Below, piece after piece: positions 3,388 to 36,327 of a stretch of 36,395 bases of DNA. Numbering within the stretch: the stretch's first letter is position 1; each line of letters starts with the position of its first letter. Under the pieces are notes generated by a model. The model did not search any database, had not been told where the DNA came from, and was given only the letters and a program-made list of their open reading frames with translations. Location of the stretch: the IMG/VR virus record IMGVR_UViG_3300021962_000299, positions 1-36,395 of that record; one strand, written 5' to 3'. This stretch comes from a virus. Both the position numbers and the translations under genes were made by a program.

Positions 3388-3885
3388 TCAAACTTCCGGC
3401 GGATCTTCGCGCAAGTCTTTTTCCTGCGCCGGAACATCTCCGTTAGTGGCTATGCAGATCCAGACTCCCGGCGCGTTCTCGGCGTCCTCGTAATACTTCC
3501 ACGCGAGCATTCCGATGACTTGTGAGTCGTCACGCCAAACGCGGTTGTCCTTCGTGATGACGTCGAGCACGAGCTTGGAGAGATTGTCGATATCTGGTTT
3601 GCCGACTGGTTGCTTCGGCGCGTTCGACTTCAAACCCTTTTTCCCGAAATGGGATTTCGGCCTCGGCAGAATGAAGCGCATTGAGACGCCGACCGAATCA
3701 AGCGTCGGAGTCATCGCGAGCGCATCGAGCTTGGCGCGGAGCGCGAAATAGACGCACTCCTTCCACTCGTCTGCGGTGCCGGGATCGTACATTCGCGCGG
3801 AGTATTTATTCCCGAAACGCTGGGCAAAAGCGCGAGCGCGCGGCTGGCCTTTGGGAATCCCGCGTGCCTCGAAGGTGATTGTCAT
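3388..3885 (-). CDS. rusA: RusA-family Holliday junction resolvase
   Basis: A 165-residue endonuclease that would cut branched DNA (four-way junctions) during recombination or before packaging. The N-terminal start (TFEARGIPKGQPR) matches RusA folds. The catalytic signature KPDIDNLSKLVLD spans about 97-108 with Asp98, Asp100 and Asp108, and further acidic residues follow (VWRDDSQV, 117-123). RusA proteins are usually 120-140 residues. The extra length is a C-terminal tail rich in Asp/Glu/Pro. The gene overlaps the preceding small gene by ATGA. It starts after an A/C-rich leader with no Shine-Dalgarno. Confidence 0.9.
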   Translation of the reverse strand: MTITFEARGIPKGQPRARAFAQRFGNKYSARMYDPGTADEWKECVYFALRAKLDALAMTPTLDSVGVSMRFILPRPKSHFGKKGLKSNAPKQPVGKPDIDNLSKLVLDVITKDNRVWRDDSQVIGMLAWKYYEDAENAPGVWICIATNGDVPAQEKDLREDPPEV

Positions 3886-4459: not shown

Positions 4460-5294
4460 TGCGCGCTCCTTTCGCATACCATGACGGCACTCCCAGTTCG
4501 CGCAGCGTCGGCTCGATGTTCGGCCATTGGCCTGCCTCGATGCACGACTTCAGCCGCGTGAGATCGGCGACCGTCTCGTCCTGTCCGAGCGCGCACGCCT
4601 CGTCGGTCATTCGATATACGGCAACGCCATACGGCTCGACCTTTTCGACGGCGATGAAGAAAAAGTCATAGACAGGCTGCGCGACTGATTCGCTGACGAG
4701 CGGCAGATAGAATCCCGCTTGCCGATGGTAGCCGTAGCGAAACACCGTGCGCTCGAACGAGCCAAACTCGAAGTCGGCCAAGCTCTCGGTCGTCTTCACG
4801 TCGGCAATGTACGGACGACCGCCGGACAATTCGCATCCGCCGAGATTGATCCAGTCCGGTCGGCATTGGATCGCGAACGACTTCCCGATTGAGCGGAAAG
4901 ATCGTTCGGGAAAGCCATGCGCAAGCAACTCGTTGGCGAGCGGATGGGACGCAACCGATGCTGCCATCTCGGCGATCTGCGCGGCCTCGTCTTGATCGAT
5001 GATCGTCTTCCCGGCGTGCTGGGCCTCGAACGCTGCGAACTCATCTTTGCCCTGCTTCGTGCGCCGGTCGATGCCTTCTGGCCGAACCGCGAATTGCTCG
5101 TGCCACGTCATCGGCTCCAGAATGACAGCGTGCGCTGCCGATCCAACGCGGAACGCTGCGCTTGCAGGTTCGCGAGCAAGAATCTTCGCGACGTGACGCT
5201 TGTAATACAGCATCGGGCGGCGGCGGAATACCTCCAGCTTGGAGTGCGAAACAGCTTCGTTCGCGTGATATGCTTGGTTCGTCTCGATGATCAC
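4452..5294 (-). CDS. RecE-like PD-(D/E)XK exonuclease
   Basis: A 280-residue nuclease that would resect double-stranded DNA 5' to 3' to produce single strands for the RecT-like partner. The N-terminal segment contains the GSAAHAVILEP motif (about 51-61) with a metal-site His. The core follows with CRPDWIN (Asp147), IADVKTTES (Asp165 and Lys167) and YHRQAGFYLP (Gln192). This order matches the RecE / putative exonuclease-8 PDDEXK-like family. The start is GTG behind AAGGAGGTGA and overlaps the upstream stop (GTGA). The RecT-like annealase is three genes upstream, forming the usual two-component recombination set. Confidence 0.88.
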   Translation of the reverse strand: MIIETNQAYHANEAVSHSKLEVFRRRPMLYYKRHVAKILAREPASAAFRVGSAAHAVILEPMTWHEQFAVRPEGIDRRTKQGKDEFAAFEAQHAGKTIIDQDEAAQIAEMAASVASHPLANELLAHGFPERSFRSIGKSFAIQCRPDWINLGGCELSGGRPYIADVKTTESLADFEFGSFERTVFRYGYHRQAGFYLPLVSESVAQPVYDFFFIAVEKVEPYGVAVYRMTDEACALGQDETVADLTRLKSCIEAGQWPNIEPTLRELGVPSWYAKGARND

Positions 5295-5482
5295 GACTCA
5301 CCTCCTTTCAATATATCAAGACGATGCAACTCCGACGCCACGCGGTGCAGGATTTGCGTCGCGGAATGCACGACGCAGTAGGCGCGATAGTATTCTTCGT
5401 GATGCTTCAGCGTCCACGCGCGCTCGATGCAGTCTATCGCCTCGATGAACTTCGCGTTCAAGTCTACTTGTGAAATGATCAT
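5291..5482 (-). CDS. Small hypothetical protein, 63 aa
   Basis: A 63-residue, mostly helical protein lying between the RecT-like and RecE-like genes. It overlaps its upstream neighbour by ATGA and its downstream neighbour by GTGA. GGAGGGC lies a few nucleotides before the ATG. Composition is rich in Ile, His, Tyr and Glu, with a central HHEEYYRAYCVVHS segment at about 27-40 and no recognised domain. Its position inside the recombination operon suggests an accessory role, which is inference only. Confidence 0.6.
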   Translation of the reverse strand: MIISQVDLNAKFIEAIDCIERAWTLKHHEEYYRAYCVVHSATQILHRVASELHRLDILKGGES

Positions 5483-5772
5483 TGCTTGCCCTCCTCGATG
5501 CCGAGCTTCGACTGGAGCGGATCGACTTCCTGTTCGCTCTCGTCTTTATAGCGAGCGGACCAGCCGAGCTTGACGATCACGGTCGGTGCCTGCGCGAGCG
5601 CATCCCACTCGATTGCGACGGAGACTTTCGCGACCGGCTCGGTCTTCGTGTCATCATCGACGAACGAGTCAGATGCGGCCTTTCTAATCGCCTCGTAGTT
5701 TGTCTCAAGCAGACCGCGCAGTTGCTCGGTCGCGGAATTGATGACTGCGGTTCGGATTTCGTTTGTGCTCAT
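5479..5772 (-). CDS. Hypothetical protein, 97 aa
   Basis: ATG at 5772 is chosen because it lies 8 nt after the RecT-like stop. An upstream in-frame extension would overlap that gene and is Ser/Arg-rich. The N-terminal half is helical (NEIRTAVINSATEQLRGLL). The C-terminal half looks like two beta strands (VAKVSVAIEWDAL, TVIVKLGWSARYKD), a pattern seen in small phage proteins accompanying RecT. No catalytic motif is evident. There is no Shine-Dalgarno at the start, only an A/C-rich leader. Confidence 0.6.
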   Translation of the reverse strand: MSTNEIRTAVINSATEQLRGLLETNYEAIRKAASDSFVDDDTKTEPVAKVSVAIEWDALAQAPTVIVKLGWSARYKDESEQEVDPLQSKLGIEEGKQ

Positions 5773-5779
5773 GGTACGT

Positions 5780-6409
5780 TTAGAGGTTAGCGGTGAGTCC
5801 GGCGGCGACCTTCTCAGCGAGCGGCGTGACATTGACTGGTTCGTCGCGCACTTCTTCGGCGGTCTTCAGACCTTTCAGAACATCGCCGAACATATCGCGA
5901 AGGAGAAATCCGCGTGCGCGAAACTTGAGCATCCGGCGCGGATAATCAGTCCACGGCCCGCTCTTATTCCAGAGCTTCGCGGTCTTCGCGTCGGCGACCG
6001 TGAATGTCTCCGACTGCGGCTCGAAGCCGCGTCGCTTCGCGGTGACTTTATAGCCGTGCGAGTCCTTGCCCTGTTCTCCGATCTCCTCCTCGGAATAGCT
6101 TTCGAGCTGGCCGCTGGAGCGGATCAGCGCGAGCGCGGCGTCGCCGAATAGTGACGGCCGGCCGTTGACCACGGCGATGTTGGAGAGAGCAGCCATCGGA
6201 GTCAGGCCGAGTTCCGCGCCCCATTGGAGCGCGACGAGCACGCTTTCTGGTTTCTCCATTCCGCGCGGCGCGAAGCCAGAGCCGACGATTGCCTTCGCAA
6301 ATCGGAAGGCATCTTCAAGCGACGTGAGTTGCACGCCAGTCGAGCCGAATGAGATCGGCGATGATACAGCCGCTTTCGCGGCGACGATGATTTCGTTTTC
6401 GTTGTTCAT
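5780..6409 (-). CDS. recT: RecT-family single-strand annealing protein
   Basis: A 209-residue annealase that would coat single-stranded DNA and pair complementary strands. The segment from about residue 28 onward (LEDAFRFAKAIVGSGFAP), then SVLVALQWGAELGLTPMAAL and NIAVVNGRPSLFGDAALALI, is the signature of the RecT-type phage family. Further matching segments are SHGYKVTAKRRG, FTVADAKTAKLWNKSGPW and YPRRMLKFRARGFLLRDMF. Length is near the lower end for the family (about 200-300). ATG 6409 is preferred. In-frame ATG codons at 6427 and 6448 are alternatives, all lacking a Shine-Dalgarno. It pairs functionally with the RecE-like nuclease. Confidence 0.88.
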   Translation of the reverse strand: MNNENEIIVAAKAAVSSPISFGSTGVQLTSLEDAFRFAKAIVGSGFAPRGMEKPESVLVALQWGAELGLTPMAALSNIAVVNGRPSLFGDAALALIRSSGQLESYSEEEIGEQGKDSHGYKVTAKRRGFEPQSETFTVADAKTAKLWNKSGPWTDYPRRMLKFRARGFLLRDMFGDVLKGLKTAEEVRDEPVNVTPLAEKVAAGLTANL

Positions 6410-24565: not shown

Positions 24566-27500
24566 TTATACAGCGACAGCGGGAATCTTGTAGGAGGTGC
24601 CGGTCGAGTCCTTGATGACCACGTAGCCGGTGGCCGTGGGTGCGCCAGCGACGTAGGCGTTGCCGAGTTGGAGATCTTTTCCGCTCGCAACTTTCAAGCC
24701 TCCAGCCGATGCCGAAAAGTGAACGGCACCGTTGTAGTGTATTTCGGTTTCGTAGCTACGACCGCTCGGAGTGCCGAGACTCATCTTCCCGGTTGAGTCA
24801 TCATACTGCGCGAACGCAAAAGTCTGGCTGTCATCGTTCGACCAGCGAAGAACGCCAGCCGTTGCCGAACGAATTTTGATATCGCCGTTGACTTGGAGTT
24901 TCTGACCGGGACTCGTCGTGCCGATGCCGACGTTGCCGCTCTGATCAAGCGTCATCGCGGTGATGCGTGAAGCCGTTGTATTCGGCGTTACATCAAACGA
25001 GATTTTCGTACCCTGCGCGGTGTTAGTATGATCCTCCGTCGCCGCAAAAACGATGCGTGCATTTGAAGTCGCTGAGCCGCCACCCCAACCGTTGGTTGTA
25101 TTGTAGCCGTATCCTCCAAGGATCATCAGCGCACTTCCAGACGTAGTCTGCGTTGGAGATGCTTTCGTTCCACCTGCTACACCCTGCACGATTCCCGTAT
25201 TCGATCCATAGGACAGCATCGTCATGATGTTCTGACCATCGAATGACCCGCCCATGCGTGTATTGGCCGAAGGATAATTTGCCGATGCGGTATCTCCGTT
25301 ATTCGAAACAAGCGCACTTGTCGTCGCACTCAGCGTCGTGAATGCACCCGTGCTCGGCGTCGTCTCGCCCACCTTGCCATTGATATTGATCGAGGCGGTG
25401 CCGGTCAGGTTCGTGACCGTGCCGCTCGACGGCGTGCCGAGCGCGCCGCCGCTGGTGAGCAGAGTCGAGGACGCCGGAATCGTCGTGCCGTTCAGCGTCG
25501 TCGTGCTGCTGCTCGACAGACTCGTGAAAGCTCCGGTATTCGGCGACGATGCGCCCACCGTCGTGCCGTTGATCGAGCCGCCCGTGATCGCGACGCTGTT
25601 CGCGTCCTGCACGCCCATCGTTCCGATACCGAGATTCAGACGCGCGGTCGAGGCCGACAATACATCCGACAGGTTGCTCGCCTTCGCGAGCTTCTCGGTA
25701 TCGAGTTCATCAATCGCTGCCTGCACCGTCGTCGCGACGATACCTCCAGCCGGAACATTCGTGACCTGCGAGGCAGTATAGTCACCGCTTGCCGCAACAA
25801 TGTTTCCATTGCGACCGAATACGGAAGCGACCGCGTCGGTGTTATCCACCTTCTGCCAGTCGGAGCCGCTGGACACAATCCAGTCGCCGACGTCGAAGGT
25901 GATGCTGGCGAACGAGCCAGCCGCGCTCGTGATGTAGTAATCACCGCGCGTCGATGCGCTCGGAGGATTGACGAGCGTCGGCGTGTTCGTCGAGGCGTCC
26001 CACGTTCCCTCGTAGTAAAGCTGACCGAGAACGGAATCCGGCAACTGCGTCGTCGGAACCTTGCCGCCAGCATCAAGCGTCGCGACGCCATTGGCCGCGC
26101 CTTTCTCCGTCGTGGGAATCTTTCCGGCCAGCGCGCTCGTCAGGCCGGTGACCTGCGATTCGATGATCTGAATGTTTGGCGCGGTGACGGAAGTGATGCG
26201 GCCCTTCGCATCAATCGTGATTGAAGGCACGCTCGATGCAGAACCGTAGTTGCCTGCGATCACTCCGCTGATCGTCAACGAAGGGTTGGGATAATTGCCC
26301 GTTAGGTCGCCGCCTGCGGCTTGTCCGGTCTGGATGAAGTAGGTCGTGCTTTCGAGCGCAGCGGAGCCGAGTGCGAGATTGTTCCGCGCCGTCGATACGT
26401 CCGCAAGGTCACTCAGGTTCGATGCCTTCGCGAGCTTCTCCAAGTCTAGCTCGTTGATCGCCGCTTGAATGTCGGTCGCGGTGATGCTGCCTGCTGGCGT
26501 GTTCGTGATCTGCGCGGCAGAATAGTCGCCATTCGATGCGGTGACGGAGCCGGTCCTTCCGAAGACGCTTACAACGTCAGCGGCAACCGTGATCGAGGCG
26601 TCGCCGTTCGTGATCGAGACGCCTGCGCCAGCATTGAGCCGAGCATTTTTCCAGAGGTTGTCAGTTTCATCGTACACGATGACCTGACCGGCCAGTTTCG
26701 GCGCGTTGATTTGTACGTCGTGAAGCTCGTCGAGTTCGTAGCCGTTCTGAATGCGAACATACAATTCGCCGTTCCCGTTGTTGGCACGCTCTACGATGCC
26801 AACATCCACGAGATGCTTGGGCGACAAAGGCCTGACCGCGGTGAACGAACCGGGAGTTTCTCCGAGATATACGCTATCACCGTCGTTATAGCTGCCCAGC
26901 ATTAGCTTGTCTACAACGCCGATGCAGGTGATCTGACCGACTCCACCGGCAGAAATGGAATCGTCGCTCACAATGCCGATGGTTTTCGCGGAGGTGGCAT
27001 CGCTCAAGTTGGATGCCAGCTTGACGGACATTCTATTGCCAGACGCGCCGAACGCATACACGACTTGACCACGAGTGATCGCAACGGATTCGGCGTTCGT
27101 GATCGTTGCGGTCAGCGTTTCCTGCGCGCCAGAAGCGTCAATGGTGATTGATCCCGGCGCGCTAGTGATGTTGATGCCGACGCCAGCGGTCAGCGGTGCA
27201 GCGGAGTACGAGCCGTTGTTTCCGATCAGAAGCTCGCCATCAGAAGGAGTCGGCAGAAAGTCGGTGATTGAAGTCGGTCCACCGCCACCGCCGGTTCCTC
27301 GCGCGGCGACAAGAGTCCAGTCCGACGAACTGCGCGTCGGTCGCGTGCGATTGTCGTCCTTCGCAGACACGTAGGAATCACCGTTGATCGTGACGAAATC
27401 CAGCTTGTTATAGACAACATCAGGACGCCACTTGCCGCGCGGGTTCAGCGTCTTCGGTTCTGCGAATTCCTTGCGCAGCTTGTCGATTTCACCAGCACGC

Positions 27501-34319: not shown

Positions 34320-34955
34320 TTATTCCTCGGCGACCGTTGCCTTGATCGCGTCCGTTTCGAACCGCGCCAGATTCGCGTTCACCACTTCGCGGATCTCGTC
34401 GAGGATGAGCGCGCCTTCGACGTTCGCCTCTGCGGCAGATTTGCCAGCGACTCGCGGGCCGAGTTCGACTTCGAGCTTGAGGCGCAGGAGCAAGTCGAGC
34501 TTGGTCCCGAGTAGGCGCAGCATCTCGCGCACGGTTTCGCGCTCGACGACTTCTTGCTCTTCCCTGCGATTCTTCGACCGCGCCAGCAGGATTTGCTCGC
34601 GCATTAAATCGGCTTTTAGCTCGGCGAGTGTCTTCGTCGCCGTGTCCTTGCCGATCAGCTTTTCGGCGCAGAAGGCGCGCCATGCCGGAACGTTCTCACG
34701 CTTGCCGTCCGGCTTCGGAGCCTCGTCAGGGTATCGCTTGCGGGCATCGTAAATCGCCTGCCGCGATAGACCAAGCTCTTCGGCAAGCTGCTTCGGCCCG
34801 CTAACCCATTCGCCACCGGAGCGGTCGGCCTCGAACTCGGAAAGCGCCTTGCGCTCGGAGGCGGTGAGCGTCTTGCCAGCCTTGAGCTTCTTGGTGATGT
34901 TGGCGACGTTCGCCTTCGCCAGCAGCTCGGCTGGATTCGGTGCGTCGTCGCTCAT
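34320..34955 (-). CDS. terS: Probable small terminase subunit
   Basis: A 211-residue protein with an N-terminal charged region, a helix-turn-helix (GPKQLAEELGLSRQAIYDARKRYP, about 53-76) and a helical coiled-coil C-terminal half (about 100-200, with MREQILLARSKNRREEQEVVERETVREML and LGTKLDLLLRLKLEVEL). This HTH-then-oligomerisation layout is that of Nu1-like small terminases, which recognise the packaging site. The large terminase lies 2 kb downstream, so the two are not adjacent, which is somewhat unusual. ATG overlaps the Mom-like stop (ATGA). Confidence 0.7.
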   Translation of the reverse strand: MSDDAPNPAELLAKANVANITKKLKAGKTLTASERKALSEFEADRSGGEWVSGPKQLAEELGLSRQAIYDARKRYPDEAPKPDGKRENVPAWRAFCAEKLIGKDTATKTLAELKADLMREQILLARSKNRREEQEVVERETVREMLRLLGTKLDLLLRLKLEVELGPRVAGKSAAEANVEGALILDEIREVVNANLARFETDAIKATVAEE

Positions 34956-35734
34956 GCGTCAGATTGGAGCGCCGGGGTCGGGGTTGAACCGCCCTTTGCA
35001 GGCTGGAGGCCTGCCGTGTCCTTCGTGTCACTTCCGGCGCGTGAAATTGCTTGGCCGCGATACATTGCCGCACCGCGGCGTTCGATCTCATTAAAAGGAA
35101 TGATCGGAACGGTCAAACGGGAACGAGCGGATGAATTGAGGAAGTAAAGATATCGCAGTTGAAAACCCGGCAACCGTTGCGCTCCAGTTCTTTTCACAAA
35201 ATCAGCCCAGCTTTCGCCGATTCGGAATCCGATTCGCTTTCTCGTGTTCTCTCCTTGCAACTGACGAGAAACAAAATCAGCGACGACCTCTCCGCTTGCT
35301 GTTCTCCACATTGAGCGGTTTTCCTTGATCTGTGTCAGCACAAATCCGCTTGCGCGATAGATTGTTCCGTCGCCGCATTGCGTCGCATCGGCAAAGGAAA
35401 CTACCCACTCAATGTGCGGATAGGTGTTTCGTATCAATCGCATCGCAACCGACAAAGCGCGACTCTCTGAATTCCGCGGAAGCCAATCCGCAAACGCCAT
35501 CCGATTAAGCTCAAGAAATCCGTTCCATCCGGTTCCTTTGACGAGCGGAAGTATTTTTCGCTTATCAACGGGTGGCCCAAATTGTATCGCTCCTCCGCAT
35601 TTTCCATCGAGGAAAACTCCAAAGTGCAGAAATGATCCGAATGCGGTCTTCCCAGAATAATGGCAGGCGCGAACAATTTTTTCCGCGTCTCCTCTGGTGA
35701 TCGGAGCAAGGTGAATCTGTTTCGCTTCGCTCAA
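34952..35734 (-). CDS. Mom-like DNA modification protein (GNAT fold)
   Basis: A 260-residue protein resembling phage Mu Mom, the GNAT-fold enzyme that adds a carbamoylmethyl group to DNA adenine and protects it from restriction. Segments are ITRGDAEKIVRACHYSGKTAFGSFLHFGVFLDGKCGGAIQFG (about 12-53), ELNRMAFADWLPRNSESRALSVAMRLI (75-101), SFADATQCGDGTIYRASGFV (113-132) and GTGW. Mu Mom is about 230 residues. The extra C-terminal stretch from about 232 on is encoded by the tRNA-like element and ends in GGSTPTPALQ. ATG overlaps the ParB-like stop (ATGA), so the pair is co-translated. Confidence 0.82.
   Translation of the reverse strand: MSEAKQIHLAPITRGDAEKIVRACHYSGKTAFGSFLHFGVFLDGKCGGAIQFGPPVDKRKILPLVKGTGWNGFLELNRMAFADWLPRNSESRALSVAMRLIRNTYPHIEWVVSFADATQCGDGTIYRASGFVLTQIKENRSMWRTASGEVVADFVSRQLQGENTRKRIGFRIGESWADFVKRTGAQRLPGFQLRYLYFLNSSARSRLTVPIIPFNEIERRGAAMYRGQAISRAGSDTKDTAGLQPAKGGSTPTPALQSDA
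34965..35040 (-). tRNA. 76-nt tRNA-like element overlapping the Mom-like gene
   Basis: On the minus strand GCGCCGG (35040-35034) pairs perfectly with CCGGCGC (34975-34969), followed by T and an encoded CCA, exactly 76 nt in all. The anticodon arm has GCAGG/CCTGC with the 7-nt loop CCTCCAG, giving anticodon TCC (Gly) but C instead of the usual T at position 33. The T-loop TTCAACC closes a stem with one G-A mismatch, and the D-arm has only three pairs (GTG/CAC). Variable region is 3-4 nt. It lies inside the last 26 codons of the Mom-like frame. It may be a functional odd tRNA, a tRNA mimic or a relic. Confidence 0.6.
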
Positions 35735-36327
35735 GATTTTTCTCCGATGAAATTTGCGGCGATAAATGCCAGCGCGTTCCCATTTGAATTTTCGTTGTTT
35801 GGCGATTCGCTGCCGCCCTCGGACTTCGCCTTCTGCAATGCCTTTTCAATCGTCGCGAACTGGTCATCGTGAACCGTGAACGTCATCTGACGAAACGGTG
35901 CGCGGTCGCCATTCGGAAGTTCCGGCATCGACGCTTCCGCGACGTCGAACTTGCCTAGGTCAGCCTCTTCAAACCCGATCTCGTCCATCGGAAAATCCTC
36001 GGCCCTCAGCGACAGAAGAACGTCGCCCAACTTTTCATCCCACTCCGCAAGCTCGGCTGTCCGGTTGTCCGCGATGCCGAACGCGGTCGCGTCCACGCCA
36101 GCGAGCGCGGTGCGGACGATCTGGATCTCGGTCCAGCCAAGCTCGGTCGCTGCGGCCAGCGTGCCGTTGCCCGCGAGGACGATTCCCTTCGCGTCAACGA
36201 CGATCGGCTTCTGCTGACCGAATCGGCGCAAGCTCGCCTTGATCGCGTCAAGGTTGCGGCGGGAATGCTTCCGCGTGTTCGCCGGATCGAACGAAATTGA
36301 ATCAAGCGGGACGGTTTCGAGTTTCAT
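35731..36327 (-). CDS. ParB/Srx-domain protein
   Basis: A 198-residue protein. The ParB/sulfiredoxin-like domain (about 3-100) begins VPLDSISFDPANTRKHSRRNLDAIKASLRRFGQQKPIVVD and contains the VLAGNGTLAAATELGWTEI signature (about 50-68) and IADNRTAELAEWD. A C-terminal part (about 145-195) has QMTFTVHDDQFATIEKALQKAK, a segment common to phage ParB-like proteins placed before modification or terminase genes. It may act as a nuclease, CTPase-like clamp or specificity factor for the Mom-like enzyme. Start ATG 36327 has an A/T-rich leader without a Shine-Dalgarno. Confidence 0.8.
   Translation of the reverse strand: MKLETVPLDSISFDPANTRKHSRRNLDAIKASLRRFGQQKPIVVDAKGIVLAGNGTLAAATELGWTEIQIVRTALAGVDATAFGIADNRTAELAEWDEKLGDVLLSLRAEDFPMDEIGFEEADLGKFDVAEASMPELPNGDRAPFRQMTFTVHDDQFATIEKALQKAKSEGGSESPNNENSNGNALAFIAANFIGEKS

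Follow-up and report, generated by a model that had tools for sequence, protein, structure and literature searches.

A mom-linked tRNA-Gly-like gene in phages and its probable role as a glycine carrier for Mom

The virus record IMGVR_UViG_3300021962_000299 of IMG/VR (36,395 nucleotides (nt); the whole stretch is called the window below) contains a tRNA-like element of 76 nt on the minus strand, running from 35040 to 34965 within the 3' end of the open reading frame (ORF) for Mom, a DNA-modification protein. The locus raises the questions of whether the conserved unit in this region is an RNA or the end of a protein, and, if it is an RNA, for what purpose a phage would keep it there. We compared copies of the element and their surroundings in phages and bacterial genomes (individual loci are given as L numbers), and propose that it is very likely a phage-encoded, non-translating tRNA-Gly that would act in trans to carry glycine to the adjacent Mom.

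Conservation of the element as an RNA

The anatomy given by the initial annotation held in nearly all points: the window copy has a perfect 7-bp acceptor stem (GCGCCGG/CCGGCGC) with U73 and an encoded CCA after it, a 5-bp anticodon stem closing a 7-nt loop (CCUCCAG) with C at position 33, a D-stem with an A-A opposition plus 3 good pairs, and a variable region of 4 nt. The G-A oddity noted in the T-stem is better read as a bulge than as a mismatch, since a six-pair stem with an invariant G-A mismatch was paired in 81.7% of cells, compared with 100% for a 5-bp stem with a bulged A. The mismatch register was therefore dropped, together with the tRNA-Sec-like 13-bp stack that a 6-bp T-stem had suggested.

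Standard tRNA models do not recognize the window element. ARAGORN, named in the initial annotation as a check, reported no tRNA genes in the window, and Rfam gave no match to the element at the gathering threshold. The best Rfam match was tRNA-Sec (RF01852), which was weak (18.2 bits against a gathering threshold of 47, E 0.24) and was the only family of the tRNA clan reported at E values up to 10, the tool retaining only the best of a clan. Folding of the single sequence, done for the plus strand only (i.e. opposite to the strand of the element), gave a z-score of -0.61, which has no bearing on the element. With our own models R1 and R2 the window copy scored 91.1 and 90.6 bits, respectively, being a training row of both; a second R2 match in the window (25823-25887, minus strand) was weak (15.7 bits, E 0.094) and was regarded as chance. 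As a guide to chance, other phage loci (569 kb) were resampled five times with a first-order Markov model, and a scan of both strands for the Gly-type tRNA shape (beginning with GC; acceptor of 7 bp with U73; T-arm of 5 bp, bulged or not; anticodon arm of 5 bp with CC in its loop) gave no match. The case for a putative RNA gene rests on comparison across copies.

In an alignment of 42 distinct phage copies (A1), 97.6% of the pair cells of the bulged-A cloverleaf were standard pairs (acceptor stem 99.3%, anticodon stem 99.5%, T-stem 100%, D-stem 89.3%), and the 7-bp acceptor, 5-bp anticodon stem and 5-bp T-stem were found across the alignment. Double compensatory changes occurred at 14 of the 21 pairs, and the covariation score was 0.563, compared with 0.144 after shuffling (none of 500 shuffles reached the observed value) and at most 0.116 in slid controls. 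The D-stem pairs 11-24 and 12-23 were U-A and G-C in 29 of the 42 copies, and C-G and A-U in the other 13. Within A1, compensatory changes in the T-stem were seen at pairs 49-64 and 51-61, in one sequence each, and the copies from bacterial genomes had them at all five T-stem pairs. These genome copies, which were outside the training of the model, showed double changes at 18 of 21 pairs and a score of 0.642 versus 0.141 after shuffling, in an alignment fitted to the structure of the model. The comparison with relatives that the initial annotation had proposed thus favours an RNA, and covariation in phage and genome copies strongly supports its suggestion of a genuine, if divergent, tRNA-Gly(UCC). 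The element is a conserved RNA gene under selection.

The protein frame behaves differently. As had been noted, the Mom-like frame runs through the element; its stop overlaps the start of the small terminase gene (Table 1). In the body of mom, the codon-position entropies for 22 loci read through in frame were 0.688, 0.464 and 1.469 for positions 1, 2 and 3, with 68, 96 and 5 of 206 codons invariant at the respective positions, whereas inside the element of the same loci the values were 0.726, 0.741 and 0.760. C35, fixed in 22/22 loci, falls on a third codon position, while positions 1 and 2 of its codon vary and the residue encoded is F, I, D, L, N, V, S or H. The reading frame shifts within the element in L030 and L078, and a stop codon lies within it in L041, the RNA being intact in all three. 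Since the codon-position signal is absent from the element, and since frame shifts and a stop leave the RNA intact, the RNA and not the protein frame is the conserved unit. The initial annotation had taken Mom residues kept over lost base pairs as the sign that would speak against an RNA; the reverse was found, the pairs being conserved and the frame not. Psychrobacter phage Y8A carries two copies in tandem, placed after the mom stop codon and before the terminase gene, and in Salinibacter phage B2_17 the element, annotated by the depositors as tRNA-Gly, directly follows a divergent Mom gene (PF25680 E 9e-34); the B2_17 copy, a training row, scores 91 bits with R2.

Linkage to mom and placement

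A first IMG/VR scan with the window Mom as query gave 125 relatives, the best 80 of which were kept, and the element was found in 80/80 of these loci (79 by structure scan and L034 by covariance model), although the query contained the tail encoded by the element, so that this set leans to element-bearing loci. In a second scan, with a query ending before the element and keeping the best 80 of at least 593, the element was present in 79/79 new locus records, many of their contigs being common to the first set. Among bacterial genomes and metagenome-assembled genomes (MAGs) of many phyla, 53 of 65 Mom loci had the element.

The search was also run from the RNA to Mom. A degenerate DNA pattern of 28 bases matched at least 120 stretches in IMG/VR, and 117 matches with an acceptor of at least 6 pairs were counted (L291, L298 and L338, without a good acceptor, were dropped). 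Among the matches listed, a Mom domain on the strand of the RNA was present at 110/117 loci. The 7 without a Mom call comprised 5 with no more than 158 bases upstream in the locus, L347, whose Mom is divergent and truncated (PF25680 E 6.8e-9), and L359, in which DruA stands in place of Mom (see below). Linkage to a non-ribosomal transferase, as would be expected of a dedicated tRNA-Gly, was found in both search directions.

The position relative to mom varies. Among the matches listed, 78/110 copies lie at or overlap the 3' end of the Mom domain and 32/110 lie at or before its 5' end. Of the genome copies, those in L131 and L160 are on the strand opposite to mom, that in L135 is 1.2 kb upstream of mom, and those in L125, L126, L127, L132 and L145 are 0.8 to 1.3 kb downstream. 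Because its placement is free in this respect (5', 3' or opposite strand), the element is best read as a trans-acting RNA gene and not as a cis element of the mRNA.

Some loci hold two copies. Tandem pairs occur in L133 (3810-3882 and 3911-3982), L153 (1499-1567 and 1574-1642) and L081 (2662-2729 and 2734-2802, between genes), and L229 has two separated copies (1025-1101 and 2478-2554), as if dose or variety counted.

On a Mom tree the presence of the element was clustered, requiring 7 changes (0/500 shuffles were as low), with the group of Mu lacking it. Deep branches of this tree are weakly supported and L153, L088 and L096 are long; no history of gain or loss was drawn from it.

The identity of the window gene as mom is firm by homology and predicted structure. 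Its product matches PF25680 with 169.7 bits (curated cut-off 27.1) and the Mu Mom structure 8bv8 with E 6.5e-25, and 8bv8 is the top structural match of its AlphaFold model (predicted local distance difference test score (pLDDT) 88.4), followed by GNAT acetyltransferases. The residue equivalent to Mu Ser124, which is mutated in 8bv8 (titled 'inactive mutant S124A'), is Ser in 24/24 aligned rows (Mu, the window twice and 21 relatives). In the window the element ends 9 nt short of the start codon of the small terminase gene. Phage Y8A contains a second mom (L101:594-1358, i.e. OQ059336.1 39393-40157; PF25680 E 2.9e-58) with no adjoining element; the only two model matches in the Y8A genome are both beside the first mom.

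Table 1. Coordinates of the putative tRNA-Gly, its parts and the adjacent genes in the window; element position p corresponds to window coordinate 35041 - p
Feature	Coordinates	Strand	Evidence
mom-associated tRNA-Gly (putative), whole element	34965..35040	-	covariation in A1; matches to models R1 and R2
Acceptor stem, 5' strand GCGCCGG, including G1-C2-G3	35034..35040	-	1-72, 2-71 and 3-70 invariant in 42/42; 4-69 to 7-66 covary
D-arm, positions 10-25, stem of 3 to 4 bp	35016..35031	-	pairs 11-24 and 12-23 swap between copies
Anticodon arm, positions 27-43	34998..35014	-	double changes at all five stem pairs
Anticodon UCC (glycine), positions 34-36	35005..35007	-	C35 and C36 fixed; 34 variable
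T-arm, 5-bp stem, positions 48-52 with 60-62 and 64-65	34976..34993	-	100% of cells paired
Bulged A in T-stem, position 63	34978	-	invariant in 42 A1 copies
Acceptor 3' strand CCGGCGC, discriminator U73 (34968) and encoded CCA (34965-34967)	34965..34975	-	U73 in 45/45
mom (Mom DNA-modification protein), TTG start as listed	34952..35734	-	PF25680 E 8.6e-50; phrog_1384; 8bv8
Small terminase subunit gene	34320..34955	-	phrog_57 E 7.8e-5; start codon overlaps mom stop
ParB-like gene, upstream of mom	35731..36327	-	phrog_620 E 1e-33

Glycine identity and the proposed role

The bacterial glycine identity set consists of U73, G1-C72, C2-G71, G3-C70, C35 and C36 (PMC9976931, Table 1), and the window copy has all of it. 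In the phages the whole set was fixed in 45/45 distinct 72-nt copies, found with a structure scan that itself demanded G1-C2-G3, the complementary 3' bases and T at position 73. A fairer test is provided by the model-found copies from bacterial genomes (52 matches, 50 of them distinct, identical rows being counted once; the alignment of this set, A7, excludes L141, L148, L153, L163, L164, L166 and loci without a match), although the models favour these bases as well, so that divergent copies would be missed. In this set G1-C72 and C2-G71 were found in 50/50 copies, G3-C70 in 46/50, U73 in 49/50, CC in the anticodon loop in 49/50 and an encoded CCA in 33/50. An earlier scan from the T-arm motif, in which acceptor pairing was scored and GCG served only as a tie-breaker, found GCG/CGC-T in 36 of 38 distinct matches; the two exceptions lie elsewhere in L025 and L065, both of which also hold a true copy. 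In L038, L041, L063, L064, L075 and others, U73 is not followed by an encoded CCA (TTTC, TTTT, TTTA), and such copies would need CCA addition by the host.

The features expected of a decoding tRNA are kept less well. A U33 and an unbroken T-stem, as in an elongator tRNA-Gly, are lacking in the window copy, which has C33 and the bulged A. In the 45 distinct phage copies position 33, normally U, was T in 19, A in 13, G in 8 and C in 5, and position 34 was T in 30, A in 11 and C in 4, while C35, C36 and A37 never changed. The T-stem bulge was present in 42/42 rows of A1, and its column was filled in 47 of the 50 distinct genome copies (A in 39, T in 5 and C in 3). At least 3 of 4 D-stem pairs were formed in 33/50 genome copies, leaving 17/50 without a good D-stem, and the D-arm is almost absent from copies of Bradyrhizobium and Pasteurellaceae. 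These features suggest a tRNA-Gly selected for charging rather than decoding.

Two donors have been put forward for Mom: a comparative-genomics paper of 2021 named an acyl-CoA such as glycyl-CoA (PMC7824862), and a meeting report of 2025 states that the glycyl transfer by which adenosine of Mu DNA is hypermodified requires tRNA-Gly (PMC12908700). Following the latter, the element could act in five steps: 1) Host RNase P and 3' maturation would free the RNA from the mom transcript, with CCA added where it is not encoded. 2) Host glycyl-tRNA synthetase (GlyRS) would charge it, as proposed because the bacterial identity bases are kept. 3) The T-stem bulge, the poor or absent D-arm and the free position 33 would bar EF-Tu and the ribosome and/or mark the RNA for Mom. 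4) Mom, a GNAT-fold transferase, would move the glycyl group to N6 of adenine in the phage DNA, if Mu can be extended to these phages. 5) The N6-glycyl adduct could, on chemical grounds, rearrange via a five-membered ring to the isomeric N6-carbamoylmethyl adenine. The product in Mu is N6-carbamoylmethyl (glycinamide) adenine, an isomer of N6-glycyl adenine. A dedicated glycyl-tRNA would then be present where the phage does not draw on the host pool. In the clade of the window, the RNA gene is folded into the 3' end of mom, its translation being tolerated as a C-terminal tail and not as a conserved part of the protein; this embedding may have a cost, in that each transcript gives either mom mRNA or the tRNA, not both.

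Besides the leanings of the searches mentioned above, several observations weigh against this role. From 47 isolate-phage records hit, 17 Mom loci were fetched, of which 2 (L081 and L094) have the element and 15 do not; whole-record searches for 13 of these 15 gave no match in 11, and PX29 and MT835576 gave weak matches elsewhere (20 to 28 bits), in tRNA clusters where fetched. Mu has no such linked RNA, so that host tRNA-Gly can suffice, and the dependence of Mu on tRNA-Gly itself comes from one sentence in the meeting report (PMC12908700). Ten full-length genome Mom loci had no element within about 3 kb with filters off, the other two of the 12 element-less genome loci (L164 and L166) having a partial Mom match only. 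In 9 of 11 genomes whose Mom is without a linked copy, R2 found matches elsewhere (28.8 to 53.6 bits). As candidate elements these were rejected, for in 9 of 10 fetched genome loci they were ordinary host tRNAs (labelled tRNA-Gly, Val, Met, Ala or Asp by ARAGORN, which reported none in L376); Mom was absent from the fetched unlinked loci, and neither Mom nor DruA was found in six wider stretches. The model score by itself is unspecific, and the 35 to 60 bits reached by many of the linked genome copies overlap the range of ordinary tRNAs; for these it is not the score that carries the claim but the bulge, the missing D-arm and the location next to mom. ARAGORN calls tRNA-Gly in 9 of the 59 genome loci scanned. 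The bulge is missing from L135 and from both copies of L133, and L135, which ARAGORN also calls tRNA-Gly, may be an ordinary tRNA. As to identity, four genome copies (L104, L116, L156 and L162) lack G3-C70, one (L152) lacks U73, and the phage copy L034:3725-3800 combines G3-U70, a feature familiar from alanine identity, with a glycine anticodon. Finally, exclusion from EF-Tu and the ribosome by the bulge, reduced D-arm and free position 33 is what we infer, and for the bulge and EF-Tu the argument is one of reasoning.

In L124, a Tenericutes MAG, a tRNA-like stretch read by eye follows the end of the Mom match at 3708. It has a T-arm and a CCA-like end but apparently no anticodon arm, is the only tRNA-like stretch in the flanks of the 10 element-less full-length loci, and is possibly a still more reduced form.

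Many phage tRNAs are thought to help translation, and an ordinary tRNA-Gly aiding synthesis of phage proteins would account for the NCC glycine anticodons and GlyRS identity bases, for the near-canonical genome copies, including those called by ARAGORN, and for the 53.6 bits that ordinary host tRNA-Gly genes reach with the model. We consider this unlikely, as it explains neither the freedom of position 33, the filled bulge column and the many poor D-stems, nor the fact that the element tracks a single DNA-modification gene from both search directions. Somewhat less probable is an RNA used by Mom in another capacity than as glycine donor, i.e. as a cofactor, guide or inhibitor restraining a toxic enzyme. 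This would explain the linkage equally well, and an inhibitor fits the toxicity reported for Mom on artificial expression (PMC12707154), but the exact GlyRS identity set and the tRNA-Gly dependence of Mu would be left unexplained.

A cis-acting structure in the mom-terS transcript (a processing site, translational coupler or regulator) is suggested by the position between mom and terS in the clade of the window, where the mom stop and terS start overlap. Such a structure, including the mRNA processing signal of the initial annotation, could work only within its own transcript, but some copies precede mom, some are on the other strand or in tandem between genes, and some are up to about 1.3 kb away; in addition, the fixed G1-C72, C2-G71, C35, C36 and U73 would have no explanation; we judge it improbable. 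More improbable still is a decoy that would draw off anticodon nucleases of the host or other defences directed at tRNAs: the element is tRNA-like and phage-borne, but it has glycine identity only, its loop positions 33 and 34 vary whereas the acceptor identity bases and the bulge are retained, and such a role would not account for its association with Mom. Least probable of all is that the element is left over from an integration event at a tRNA-Gly gene of the host and is now mere coding sequence, as had also been suggested initially; prophages often use tRNA 3' ends and descent from a tRNA-Gly is likely, but a relic would decay, whereas compensatory changes have maintained these stems in many bacterial phyla and the codon-position signal is absent.

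DruA and comparison with known systems

In L359, DruA (5245-6369; PF14236 E 8e-28, also called DruA by PADLOC) occupies the slot of mom in the order ParB-like gene (phrog_498 E 1.2e-11, phrog_620 E 3.9e-9), transferase, tRNA-Gly and small-terminase-like ORF (phrog_4044 E 9.6e-13). The element (6275-6350) is the same bulged tRNA-Gly as in the window and scores 80.3 bits; only this single close relative was found. A survey of the best 80 of at least 573 phage DruA loci with the Mom-trained model gave elements in 8 (L385, which is the same as L359, L401, L412, L437, L441, L443, L446 and L452). With the scan for the Gly-type tRNA shape, L438 and L458 joined the list; its 6 loci all have the tRNA on the strand of DruA, and the resamplings gave none. 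Together, 10/80 loci have matches, the copies of L437 and L441 being identical, as are those of L443 and L446, and neither scan found a match in the other 70. In L412, L438, L443, L446 and L458 the elements, 67 to 68 nt long and with the D-arm reduced or absent, are downstream of DruA, while those of L401, L437, L441 and L452 score 35.6 to 57 bits, in or near the range of ordinary tRNA-Gly. Phages often carry tRNAs, and in Pelagibacter phage HTVC008M a tRNA-Gly lies 3.9 kb from DruA; no such RNA was found in phage Mosig or in three DruA-bearing plasmids. The predicted structure of DruA has moderate confidence (pLDDT 67.2), and the structures that match it best are those of GNAT acyltransferases (top E 3.6e-4; TM-score for the query about 0.25 to 0.3).

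DruA might thus be a second GNAT-fold family with a dedicated tRNA-Gly, dependent on glycyl-tRNA, in a general class of transferase and tRNA-Gly modules. We regard this as possible but doubtful, and gave it less weight because ordinary tRNA-Gly reach 53.6 bits and 4 of the 10 DruA-linked matches could be ordinary; the association is a lead, not a result. We know of no tested activity of DruA, and if the link is upheld, the hallmark protein of Druantia would gain a biochemical activity and Druantia enzymology would be opened to testing.

If the proposed role of the mom-linked element is correct, a viral tRNA gene would be kept for the decoration of DNA and not for protein synthesis. The comparison lends independent support to the reported use of tRNA-Gly by Mom. 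The copies also offer ready-made reduced tRNAs for probing the needs of GlyRS and rejection by EF-Tu and the ribosome. In the paper on phage Y8A, tRNAscan-SE was used and no tRNA genes were reported (PMC10434257); that the two copies of this phage were missed shows why such RNAs escape annotation. Our literature search, with subscription papers and most preprints outside its reach, brought up no account of a tRNA carried by a phage and reserved for Mom. Prior art consists of the dependence of Mom on tRNA-Gly given in the meeting report and of tRNAs reserved for non-ribosomal transfer.

Four known systems may be compared with the window phage. 1) The bacterial tRNA-Sec is likewise a specialised tRNA and is the best sub-threshold Rfam match, but its 8-bp acceptor and long variable arm are absent from the element, which has glycine identity and a 7-bp acceptor. 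2) DruA (DUF4338, PF14236) of Druantia shares GNAT acyltransferase structural matches, with a bulged RNA in L359 and a D-arm-poor tRNA-Gly beside five others, but it belongs to a Pfam family different from that of Mom. 3) In Staphylococcus, a non-proteinogenic tRNA-Gly serves the formation of peptidoglycan bridges, and is similarly kept for charging but altered to feed a non-ribosomal transferase. That enzyme belongs to another family and the target is the cell wall, here DNA; the Mom-linked element, moreover, has the T-stem bulge, the loss of the D-arm and the free position 33, and is phage-borne and linked to the gene it would serve. 4) Phage Mu has a homologous Mom, with tRNA-Gly as the reported source of the glycyl group (PMC12908700). 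It has no linked tRNA gene, whereas the window phage appears to have a specialised tRNA of its own, folded into the mom frame.

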